Part shown: in pieces, positions 3,320-29,118 of the stretch
How the letters are laid out: each line of letters starts with the position of its first letter
How positions within the stretch are numbered: position 1 is the stretch's first letter
Origin: a virus
Direction: 5' to 3' (one strand)
Length of the DNA: 29,118 nucleotides
IMG/VR virus record: IMGVR_UViG_3300042319_000555
Span: 1 to 29,118 of that record
Position numbers and translations under genes: made by a program
The notes under the pieces: model-generated
Told to the model about the DNA's origin: nothing
The model's database searches: none
Seen by the model: the letters and a program-made list of their open reading frames with translations, nothing else

Positions 3320-3404
3320 TGGAGCTTCGATATTTAATATTGTTTTGTTTAGTTTTGTCGCTAGTTATCTTGGTGAATTGTTATTCAAAAGACTAACTAC
3401 ATGA
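3135..3404 (+). CDS. Small membrane protein with CPTC motif
   Basis: An 89-aa protein with a hydrophobic N-terminal helix (about 1-20), a polar linker with C46-P-T-C49 just before a tryptophan (CPTCLPFW), and a second hydrophobic stretch (about 51-79). The CPxCxxFW arrangement next to a membrane helix occurs in small phage and bacterial inner-membrane proteins whose role is unclear. Holin or membrane-modifying roles are possible. Its stop overlaps the next start by ATGA, as in neighbouring real genes, which favours this frame over the Asn/Asp-rich frame that covers its first two-thirds. Confidence 0.65.
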   Translation: MIELLLLTALISMGTIALILNPIYAKVVKILSILTNRNLEGKPLKCPTCLPFWITMIVLIINGASIFNIVLFSFVASYLGELLFKRLTT

Positions 3405-24958: not shown

Positions 24959-25315
24959 ATGAAAAACGAAATACAAAAACACATCAAAACGCTAACAGCA
25001 TACGAATATACTTTGCTGAATACCATTTGCGACTATTCAAAGATTAAACTTGATGATTTAGTTGGTCAAAAAAGACATCGAAAGTTTGTAAACGCTCGAA
25101 AGGTTGCAAGCTATCTTCTCAAAAAGAATGGTTACACGCTTCAAAACATAGGACAAATAATTAGCTTAATACCTAAAGACCATACCAGCATAATGTATAA
25201 CATACGTTTAGCTGAAAGCCACTATCAATTTGAACCATTATTTAAAAACATTGTAGATAGTGTAGGCAATGTAGTAATTAAACAAGATTTCACGGCTTTA
25301 AAACACATCAAATGA
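24959..25315 (+). CDS. DnaA domain IV-like DNA-binding protein
   Basis: A 118-aa protein that looks like the DNA-binding domain IV of the bacterial initiator DnaA without its ATPase: NARKVASYLLKKNGYTLQNI (residues 45-64) followed by IGQIISLIPKDHTSIMYNIR (64-83), matching the DnaA signature 'a..va.yl....t..sl..IG..fg.kDHtTV..a'. The key DHTS is at residues 74-77. It could bind the phage origin, DnaA boxes in host or phage DNA, or the host DnaA loader. The start of the next gene overlaps its stop (ATGA). No AAA+ motifs are present anywhere in it. Confidence 0.75.
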   Translation: MKNEIQKHIKTLTAYEYTLLNTICDYSKIKLDDLVGQKRHRKFVNARKVASYLLKKNGYTLQNIGQIISLIPKDHTSIMYNIRLAESHYQFEPLFKNIVDSVGNVVIKQDFTALKHIK

Positions 25316-26751: not shown

Positions 26752-27096
26752 ATGAGTACAATGATTAGTGGGTATATCACCCTAGACAAATTAAAAGAAA
26801 TCGTAAAGGTTTGCGAAAGCAAAAACGAAACAGGCTTTAAATTTACAGCCTCTATTTCAGACCAGTCAAACCAATACGGACAAAATGTGAGCTTCTTTGC
26901 AGAGCAAACTAAAGAACAACGAGATGCGAAAGTAAATAAGTATTATTTCGGAAATGGAAAAGTATTTTGGACTGATGGGAAAATTAGTTTAGGAACTAAA
27001 GACCAGCCAATCCCAACGAGCGAAATAAAGTATCAAGGTGGCAAAGTTGAAGATGTCAGAGTATTACAGGCTGAATCGGATGACTTGCCGTTTTAA
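26752..27096 (+). CDS. SSB-like protein with acidic DDLPF tip
   Basis: A 114-aa protein with a beta-rich core (about residues 5-95) and C-terminal SDDLPF (109-114). An acidic tip ending in Pro-Phe is the partner-binding tail of bacterial SSB proteins (consensus DDDIPF), which recruits replication and repair enzymes. Size and position between recombination genes and the primase-helicase fit a phage single-stranded DNA-binding protein. The core does not obviously show the classic SSB fold signature, so it may be a divergent OB-fold family. A promoter-like sequence overlaps its end, and a structured RNA follows. Confidence 0.68.
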   Translation: MSTMISGYITLDKLKEIVKVCESKNETGFKFTASISDQSNQYGQNVSFFAEQTKEQRDAKVNKYYFGNGKVFWTDGKISLGTKDQPIPTSEIKYQGGKVEDVRVLQAESDDLPF

Positions 27097-27120
27097 GTCA
27101 AAAAATAATATGTAAATTTG
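27091..27120 (+). promoter_or_regulatory. Promoter for the kissing-loop RNA / primase operon
   Basis: TTTT (27091-27094), an 18-bp spacer and TAAATTTG (27113-27120) match the Bacteroidota promoter form, the same spacing as the promoter at 1783. Transcription would start near 27125-27128, just before the first hairpin of the structured RNA. It overlaps the last codons of the SSB-like gene. Confidence 0.6.
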
Positions 27121-27126
27121 TAAAAT

Positions 27127-27220
27127 ATACAAGATGTCGCATATCTTTAATTTAACTTTTTTATAGTCCTTTAGAATTTAGCATGATGCGACCGTGCTAT
27201 TTTCTATAAGGACTTTTTTT
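27127..27220 (+). ncRNA. Kissing-loop small RNA / attenuator with intrinsic terminator
   Basis: Two hairpins have exactly complementary 7-nt loops. Hairpin 1: AAGAT (27131-27135), loop GTCGCAT (27136-27142), ATCTT (27143-27147). Hairpin 2: AGTCCTT-TAGAA-TT-TAGCATG (27165-27185), loop ATGCGAC (27186-27192), CGTGCTA-TT-TTCTA-T-AAGGACT (27193-27214), giving 19 pairs with one 2x2 internal loop and one bulged T. Seven T end at 27220. The loops can form a 7-bp kissing interaction within one molecule or between molecules. With a promoter just upstream, this looks like a small RNA of about 94 nt, or an attenuator controlling the primase-helicase gene pair downstream. The boundaries are predicted. I do not recognise it as a known RNA family. 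Confidence 0.75.
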
Positions 27221-27224
27221 ATTT

Positions 27225-27476
27225 ATGATTAACATCGAAGAAACAAAAAGAGATTACGAAGTATTAAAAAGTTTACATGACCTTTATTGGGCATTATTGT
27301 ATTCAAATTTTAAAAATCATTTATTTGTAGAAAGTGTCTACAAAAATTTTATGGAACATCAAATGATTGCTATTGGTTATGTTGACTTATTATTTAAGCC
27401 AAGTAAAAAATTTATTACATTTGAAAAATATTGTAAAAAATATTTCGGGCACAAATTAAAAACAGATAAATTATGA
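27225..27476 (+). CDS. Hypothetical protein before the primase-helicase
   Basis: An 83-aa aromatic-rich protein (LHDLYWALLYSNFKNHLFVE; then EKYCKKYFGHKLKTDKL), probably helical. No domain recognised. The ATG comes four bases after the terminator T-run of the structured RNA, so its translation depends on read-through or an alternative RNA fold. The stop overlaps the primase-helicase ATG by ATGA, linking the two genes. It could be a loader or regulator of the replication protein. Confidence 0.65.
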   Translation: MINIEETKRDYEVLKSLHDLYWALLYSNFKNHLFVESVYKNFMEHQMIAIGYVDLLFKPSKKFITFEKYCKKYFGHKLKTDKL

Positions 27477-29118
27477 TTACATTAGACAGATGTCTTAGAT
27501 TGCTCGAAAGTGGTTTATCACTAGCTACTTTAAGCGAAAACAAACAAGCCAATTTTAGTTGGAAACCAAACCAACAAACACCACTATCAAAAGAGGAATT
27601 TGCAAAGCGCTATCATTACCAGGGCGGGATAATGCTGAAAAGCGGTGAGCAAATGAAAGCGACATCAAACATTGCATTGATTACAGGCTACAATAACATT
27701 GAAGTTATTGACGTGGACTTGAAAGTTTTTGCAACTTTGCCGGAACAGACTAACTTTTGGAATGAGCTTCACGATTATTTGAAATCGAACATTGATGACT
27801 TTGATTTGAAGTTTGTTATTTACAAAACTAAAAACCAAGGTTATCATATTATTTATAAGTGCAATACCATTGTAGGTAATTCAAAGATAGCAAAATTAAA
27901 AGGACATAAAGAATGCGTAATTGAATCTCGTGGAATAGGCGGTTATGTAGTCGTTTATGATAATCAAATTAGCAAATTAGACTATCTCGAAATAAAGGCT
28001 ATCACAGAACGTGACAGGCAAATATTGTGGGATATTTGTAAAACTTACAACTATGTTGAAGAAAGCGAAACGATACAACCCGAAAAGAAAGAAGTTAAAG
28101 AGTATGCAGAAAACGAAATCACTCCATGGAAAGACTACAACGATAAAATTGACATCTTTGATGTTATTGGTTCGGACTTCAAGATAGTTAAGAAACTTGC
28201 TAACCATTACATAATTTTACGCCATGGAGCTACGAGTGTGCAAAGCGGTTATGTTTATAGAAACTCTAATTGCATGTACTTATTTTCGACTGGAACTATA
28301 TACCCAAACGAAAAACTAATAAGTCCTTTCAGTGCGTATGCAATAAAATATCATAACGGCAATTATAAAGAAGCCGCAAAGGATTTATACAATCAAGGAT
28401 TTGGGAGCCGTATCGTAACTAAAAAGAAAGCTATTGAAGACAAAGAAATAATAAACATCAATGCAGACGATTTGAATTTCCCTATTGACATTTTCCCTCA
28501 AGACATTCAAGAGTACATGATTGAATGTAATAAAACTTTAGATAGCTCGATTGATTACATGGGGTGCTCAATGTTGTGGTTACTTTCAGTTATTGTAGGT
28601 AATTCAATTCAAATCGAGGTTAAGCGTGGATGGTACGAAACTTGTAATGTTTGGATTGCTATCGTTGGTAAGGCGGGCTTAGGTAAAACTCCAAGTATTA
28701 GCAATATTATTTATCCATTGCAGAAAATCAATTCAAAAAGAATCAAAGAGTATATCAAACAATACGATAAATATGAAGCCTATTCAAAGTTAACCGCAGA
28801 TGAACAAAAGCAAAAAGAGGAAACAAAGAAGCCTATTAAAAATCAATTCATTGCTAATGATATCACTTTGGAAGCCCTAGTCGATTTACATCAAGAATCA
28901 AAAAACGCAGTCGGAGTATTCAAAGATGAACTTGCTGGATGGTTCAAAGATATGAATAAGTATAGAGCGGGATCCGACCTTGAATTTTGGCTAAGCTCAT
29001 GGAGTGGTAAGAGTGTAAGCATGAATCGAAAGACCGCAAAATCCTCGTTTGTTGAAAAACCATTTATACCGGTATTAGGTGGCATTCAACCTGGGATATT
29101 AGAGCAATCCTATACCGC
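27473..29118 (+). CDS. Primase-helicase (PrimPol/DUF3987), N-terminal part
   Basis: First 548 residues of the 764-aa replication protein; the rest continues at base 1. Residues 60-165 resemble a PrimPol (archaeo-eukaryotic primase) domain: D80-V-D82 in VIDVDLK, H125 in NQGYHIIY, and ESRGIGGYVVV at 151-161. Residues about 210-320 form a linker domain with PFSAYAIKYHNGNYKEAAKD. The DUF3987 helicase-like domain follows, with Walker A GKAGLGKT (399-406) and Walker B-like VFKDE (D485, E486). It would lay primers and unwind DNA at the phage origin, using a host DNA polymerase. The start is set by the ATGA overlap with the upstream gene. The frame leaves the window open, as expected for a circle. 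Confidence 0.9.
   Translation, partial: MITLDRCLRLLESGLSLATLSENKQANFSWKPNQQTPLSKEEFAKRYHYQGGIMLKSGEQMKATSNIALITGYNNIEVIDVDLKVFATLPEQTNFWNELHDYLKSNIDDFDLKFVIYKTKNQGYHIIYKCNTIVGNSKIAKLKGHKECVIESRGIGGYVVVYDNQISKLDYLEIKAITERDRQILWDICKTYNYVEESETIQPEKKEVKEYAENEITPWKDYNDKIDIFDVIGSDFKIVKKLANHYIILRHGATSVQSGYVYRNSNCMYLFSTGTIYPNEKLISPFSAYAIKYHNGNYKEAAKDLYNQGFGSRIVTKKKAIEDKEIININADDLNFPIDIFPQDIQEYMIECNKTLDSSIDYMGCSMLWLLSVIVGNSIQIEVKRGWYETCNVWIAIVGKAGLGKTPSISNIIYPLQKINSKRIKEYIKQYDKYEAYSKLTADEQKQKEETKKPIKNQFIANDITLEALVDLHQESKNAVGVFKDELAGWFKDMNKYRAGSDLEFWLSSWSGKSVSMNRKTAKSSFVEKPFIPVLGGIQPGILEQSYT
28992..29118. repeat. Terminal direct repeat, right copy (circle closure)
   Basis: Right-hand copy of the 127-bp repeat, identical to the start of the window. 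It lies inside the DUF3987 helicase part of the primase-helicase gene, just downstream of its Walker B-like region. A coding position is an unlikely place for natural virion ends, which supports an assembly overlap over a biological terminal repeat. Confidence 0.95.

Follow-up and report, generated by a model that had tools for sequence, protein, structure and literature searches.

Complementary, hypervariable hairpin loops in a putative attenuator leader ahead of a Bacteroidota phage replication operon

Two hairpins with complementary loops lie between a promoter box and the replication operon of a Bacteroidota phage, which raises the question of whether they form a regulatory RNA and, if so, upon which molecule it acts. 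The virus assembly record that carries them, the whole of which was analysed and is referred to here as the window, consists of 29,118 bases with a 127-nt terminal direct repeat. This repeat indicates that the record is circular, and therefore that the primase-helicase gene is split over its two ends. The features of the locus are as follows.

26752-27096: 114-aa ORF upstream of the leader element (ORF list)
27113..27120, + strand: Bacteroidota -7 promoter box TAAATTTG (sequence)
27131..27147, + strand: hairpin 1 (H1), 5-bp stem, close to where the transcript is predicted to begin (sequence, folding)
27136..27142, + strand: loop X, GTCGCAT, the exact complement of 27186-27192, covarying with X' in homologues
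27165..27214, + strand: hairpin 2 (H2), with a 12-bp lower stem, a 2x2 internal loop and a 7-bp upper stem (folding)
27186..27192, + strand: loop X', ATGCGAC, the apical loop of H2 (sequence, folding)
27214..27220, + strand: U-tract of the presumed intrinsic terminator (sequence; U-tract also in homologues)
27225..27476, + strand: 83-aa ORF of unassigned function, the first gene after the element (ORF list)
27473..29118, continuing at 1-776 of the window, + strand: primase-helicase, Prim-Pol/DUF3987 (Pfam and PHROG searches)

Loops X and X' are exact reverse complements, as the original prediction held, and the presence of an element with matching loops is confirmed. H1 is composed of AAGAT (27131-27135), the loop, and ATCTT (27143-27147). 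Folded alone, it closes two extra weak pairs (U-A and G-U) and keeps a 3-nt loop; the claim that both stems close at the loop borders thus fails for isolated H1, and the 7-nt H1 loop is a state that kissing would need to favour. H2 had been described as a 19-bp stem. The hairpin and its loop stand, but the 2x2 internal loop divides the stem into a lower segment of 12 bp, which contains one bulge, and an upper one of 7 bp. The first T of the T-run (27214-27220) pairs with A27165, and only 4 nt separate the end of the run from the ATG (27225) of the first gene of the primase operon, in agreement with the prediction. The -7 part of the anticipated Bacteroidota-type promoter is likewise present. 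In Flavobacterium psychrophilum the -7 box occupies -12 to -5 (PMC9723704), and here transcription is predicted to start at about 27125. A linker of roughly 17 nt joins H1 to H2, so that about 43 nt (27142 to 27186) separate X from X' within the same molecule. The 131-nt region folds with a z-score of -4.56, with 0 of 200 shuffles equally good, and the window has a single match to the full descriptor (-7 box, H1 and a terminator holding X'), against none in 20 dinucleotide shuffles.

Related phages were collected through the primase, giving 245 loci and 2.74 Mb of primase-linked sequence. These were searched with a descriptor comprising the -7 box, H1 with loop X, 14-48 nt, and a terminator-like hairpin holding X'. 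The search yielded 76 distinct elements with 61 different X sequences, against 3 in the reversed-sequence control, whereas a comparable amount of sequence from unrelated virus contigs and Cellulophaga phages gave isolated, chance-like matches only. Other loop pairs found upstream of the primase operon include CTGGTAC/GTACCAG, CTAGTCC/GGACTAG, GTAGGAGC/GCTCCTAC and GCATCAC/GTGATGC. A -7 box together with an X/X' pair is present in 72 of 104 distinct primase leaders, compared with 41 of 454 controls. No element was detected in the remaining third or so (32/104); some of these leaders contain X/X' but depart from the usual promoter or spacing, and others contain another kind of element or lack one.

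Pattern scans for scaffolds A and B returned same-allele loci only, and the pattern for scaffold C was too loose, returning unrelated contigs that then served as background. Isolated phages gave no DNA match to the window; by protein, their best matches are Cellulophaga primases of only about 30% identity, and neither Cellulophaga phi38:1 nor the first 49 kb of phi17:2 contains the element. Among host genomes of the Psychroflexus family, one of 299 matched the model, on a contig that carries a primase homologue.

The descriptor itself selects for complementarity, and a covariance model was therefore built from one scaffold with the X-X' pairs left out. The model gave 25 hits, weak ones included, of which 23 were checked; the loops match in all 23, a match being a perfect complement of at least 6 bases between the 5' loop region and H2, and 14 of these hits were absent from the model-building set. 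In the modelled scaffold all 63 cells of the X-X' helix are paired, and three of its seven pairs have changed on both sides; the H1 and H2 stems also show compensatory changes. Covariation over the whole structure is 0.446, against 0.140 for shuffled alignments (0/500). In a second scaffold both checked stems are invariant and the X-X' helix alone varies, each time on both sides, which argues that diversification is concentrated in this ‘address’. For 47 elements the own loop partner ranks best of 52; one X-X' pair is broken in each of two loci (L356 and L369). Covariation in homologous loci had been named as one test of the original prediction, and its detection supports an RNA-level element with kissing-type complementary loops.

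The anatomy of the element was then compared across 52 distinct examples. The -7 box lies 3-7 nt from the start of H1 in 34 of them, most commonly 5, and this spacing, taken with the -12 to -5 position of the box (PMC9723704), places H1 at the 5' end of the RNA. In 51 of 52 elements the 8 nt past the final G/C of the stem contain at least five T; the next start codon is no more than 30 nt away, likewise in 51 of 52. The element thus combines two hairpins bearing complementary, covarying apical loops, as in kissing-hairpin regulators, with what is, by sequence, an intrinsic terminator or attenuator: a G+C-bearing stem and a U-tract between promoter and gene. The attenuator-like placement ahead of the replication operon, as originally proposed, is supported. 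A two-sided interior loop is found in H2 of 43 of the 52 elements, compared with 81 of 184 control terminator-like hairpins, and interior loops are a reported design principle of kissing antisense regulators (PMC4878617).

Several variants of H2 recur. In six loci (L262, L325, L333, L337, L354 and L212) its internal loop is AGTA/GAA (AGUA/GAA in RNA), resembling the bulged-G (sarcin-ricin) motif, and the H2 of other elements have TGC/AAT in common. A further scaffold, near primase starts in L252, L316, L318, L320 and L338, carries an additional, third hairpin within its linker, and its H2 is closed below the U's by G-C pairs (GAG/CTC, GAC/GTC); these pairs weaken a pure terminator reading of that scaffold. 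In L002, leader allele B upstream of the primase at 3384 has X = GTGAGAA with its partner TTCTCAC far 3' in a large branched H2, so that the address can also sit outside a simple apical loop.

The prediction had placed the element upstream of the primase operon. It is indeed there, but it also precedes several other phage genes, with different loops. The next gene is the primase for 22 of the 52 distinct elements; the others include a small ORF before the primase, and genes for DUF3127, NUMOD4-HNH, MUG113/T5orf172 and DUF3223 proteins, some further ones appearing recombination-like or helicase-like by eye. In some phages, between two and four elements that differ in their loops are present ahead of several kinds of gene, and stretches of about 15 kb contain as many as four, no two with the same X. 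Several different addresses per stretch would be expected, since cross-talk, if harmful, would be avoided. One scaffold occurs before NUMOD4/HNH-type genes in four loci (L321:11018 and 13117, L327:11370, L334:10364 and L339:11046), each time with its own address, and may have been carried along with the homing endonuclease genes.

Leaders are exchanged as modules. When phages whose primase genes are about 91% identical are compared, leaders within one allele are 97-99% identical, whereas identity between alleles is 52-58%, random sequence giving 56%. Leaders that are random between alleles and near-identical within them must have moved as cassettes, and this modular exchange, together with the hypervariable loop, suggests a role in specificity. 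The pattern is what selection for distinct specificities would give, although drift plus recombination would also be compatible with it. Taken together, these comparisons of homologous loci show a conserved leader of two hairpins and a terminator, sited before the start codon, with loops that are complementary yet hypervariable and modules that are exchanged.

From this arrangement we infer that transcription terminates, that a short RNA arises, that the loops kiss and act in trans, and in which direction expression would shift. The reading that we favour, and hold tentatively, is a promoter-leader attenuator that gates the replication operon, in which the terminated RNA would act on leaders of the same kind via X-X'. 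RNA polymerase would start near 27125 and transcribe H1, the linker and then the terminator hairpin H2. Most transcripts would end as RNAs of about 95 nt, at 27214-27220, and readthrough past the terminator would allow expression of the 83-aa protein and the primase-helicase. X in H1 and X' in the terminator loop would constitute a private recognition pair. The terminated RNA, bearing both loops, could kiss a nascent leader of the same kind by X-X' and alter the frequency of termination, and expression of the replication genes would then track the number of identical templates, which would serve copy-number control or immunity against superinfection by a phage that shares the address. Should the short RNA promote termination, the outcome would be negative feedback on the replication genes.

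Orthogonality of the loops, cassette exchange, interior loops, and linker lengths unrelated to cis geometry all favour action in trans over the main alternative, in which X and X' kiss only within one nascent RNA. There, a locked pseudoknot would change the efficiency or timing of the terminator, possibly with a protein or ion as ligand, and the loops could drift freely as long as they pair. We regard this as possible but somewhat unlikely. X and X' always share one leader, the observed covariation fits cis pairing as well as trans, and on a simple length estimate the typical linkers of 13-25 nt permit a cis kiss in 43 of 52 elements. Being about 43 nt apart on one molecule, the loops could also pair fast in cis and outcompete trans pairing. 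However, the linkers of the other 9 elements look too short, linker length does not rise with the span of the kissing complex (rho = -0.36), and drift poorly explains near-identical same-allele leaders between phages that differ by 9%.

A stand-alone regulatory sRNA, with its own promoter and terminator and with other phage or host targets, while the downstream genes are transcribed from elsewhere, is improbable. The predicted start, the intrinsic terminator and the length near 95 nt are usual features of sRNAs (PMC7366714), but in nearly every element (51 of 52) no more than 30 nt separate the terminator from a start codon, several copies with differing loops occur per phage, and X' has no second same-strand target in the window. 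Still less credible is translational control, in which the U-tract would be incidental and the hairpin pair would structure the 5' UTR at the start codon, much as pseudoknots do in plasmid rep genes under their control: the ATG is close to the element and the stem pairs of one scaffold's H2 continue below the U's, yet the T-rich tract directly after the stem in 51 of 52 elements is the signature of an intrinsic terminator. That a phage repressor binds X and X' as an inverted repeat in DNA, or that they arose by chance, is very improbable, for although X and X' are inverted repeats near a promoter, they are located in loops whose stems show compensatory changes, in 61 different sequences, and in 76 elements against the 3 of the control.

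The leader attenuator acting in trans is our tentative reading of the locus itself, and a wider proposal builds upon it: a large undescribed class of phage leader RNAs, with a private loop-loop address for each operon, in which the terminated leader is its own trans-acting counter and modules are swapped to avoid cross-regulation or the superinfection immunity of relatives. This wider proposal is doubtful at present. If true, this group of Bacteroidota phages would control its replication genes, and others besides, by RNA alone, as a counterpart of repressor-operator immunity groups at several operons per genome. It would also provide dozens of natural, mutually distinct kissing-loop addresses and a ready-made set of orthogonal RNA attenuators, and would render phage-phage interference and copy control directly testable in an under-studied phylum. 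A conservative reading would still add a class of RNA element that is missing from Rfam 15.

In the window, no Rfam 15 covariance model matched at its gathering score, that of the c4 antisense RNA (RF01695) included. A 601-nt region searched with E up to 10 gave only unrelated sub-threshold matches, and 14 homologous loci gave one tRNA only. A literature search, partial in its coverage, found no description of this element. By analogy, the nearest functional likenesses are the leader RNA of satellite phage P4 and plasmid attenuators of the pT181 type, and the earlier comparison with loop-loop control of plasmid rep genes is supported; the original interpretation as a whole is partly supported.

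The P4 operon also encodes a primase-helicase (alpha). Transcription of the P4 replication genes is halted when a leader-derived RNA base-pairs with sequences in the leader (PMC4825925). CI RNA and seqA-seqC thus resemble the present element in that the leader of a phage replication operon holds its own complementary segments, with control exerted in P4 by premature termination. In contrast, CI RNA is released by processing and has two pairing sites, whereas the element has one partner, uses the apical loop of the terminator itself as an address and totals about 95 nt. The + strand of the window contains a single GTCGCAT (27136), with no downstream site of the P4 type, and neither sequence nor Rfam searches related the element to CI RNA.

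The pT181 and pIP501 attenuators likewise place a 5' hairpin and an intrinsic terminator ahead of a replication gene. Specificity in such antisense attenuators is determined by kissing loops together with interior loops (PMC4878617). Their regulator is an RNA antisense to the leader, and an anti-terminator masks one arm of the terminator, whereas X and X' of the present element share a strand. A classical anti-terminator of this type was tried and rejected, as pairing of the leader (outside X) with the first 11 nt of H2 averaged -4.40 kcal/mol observed and -4.48 shuffled. Given the lack of a second target, an anti-terminator or an Rfam match, the element fits neither the P4 nor the pT181 type as a family. 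In ColE1, RNA I and RNA II have fully complementary 7-nt kissing loops, with compatibility groups. Orthogonality in such systems has been described (PMC9458437). ColE1 controls a primer by a true antisense RNA, unlike the element. Antisense loops of the c4 RNA confer heteroimmunity on phages P1 and P7 (PMC12197685); c4 differs in that it blocks translation of an antirepressor, and its Rfam model is without a match here.

Around the element, the 83-aa ORF overlaps the primase start with its stop codon (ATGA). It has no match in Pfam or PHROG, and its predicted structure is all-helical, a helical hairpin of low confidence (pLDDT 64). This ORF (27225-27476) is kept with the leader allele of the window and is missing from the other two alleles. 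The 114-aa ORF upstream of the leader, also without a Pfam or PHROG match, is taken as SSB-like from its position. A DnaA C-terminal DNA-binding domain (PF08299) is present in a 118-aa protein encoded at 24959-25312 of the window, which may have a link to the initiation of replication. The ORFs searched revealed no integrase, and lysogenic immunity is therefore not evident.

A different leader element was observed directly upstream of the primase in L021 (4914-5000). Rfam searches of four loci that carry it (L014, L019, L021 and L041) gave no match to it. It contains a CAGG...CCTG hairpin with a U-run, and its loop TATACGTTA pairs with the downstream TAACGTATA in an arrangement resembling an H-type pseudoknot. 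A conserved core surrounds GTTGG...ATCCGTAAAAGTT, and elements of this type are also present in L014, L016, L019, L020, L022-L027, L041 and L042.
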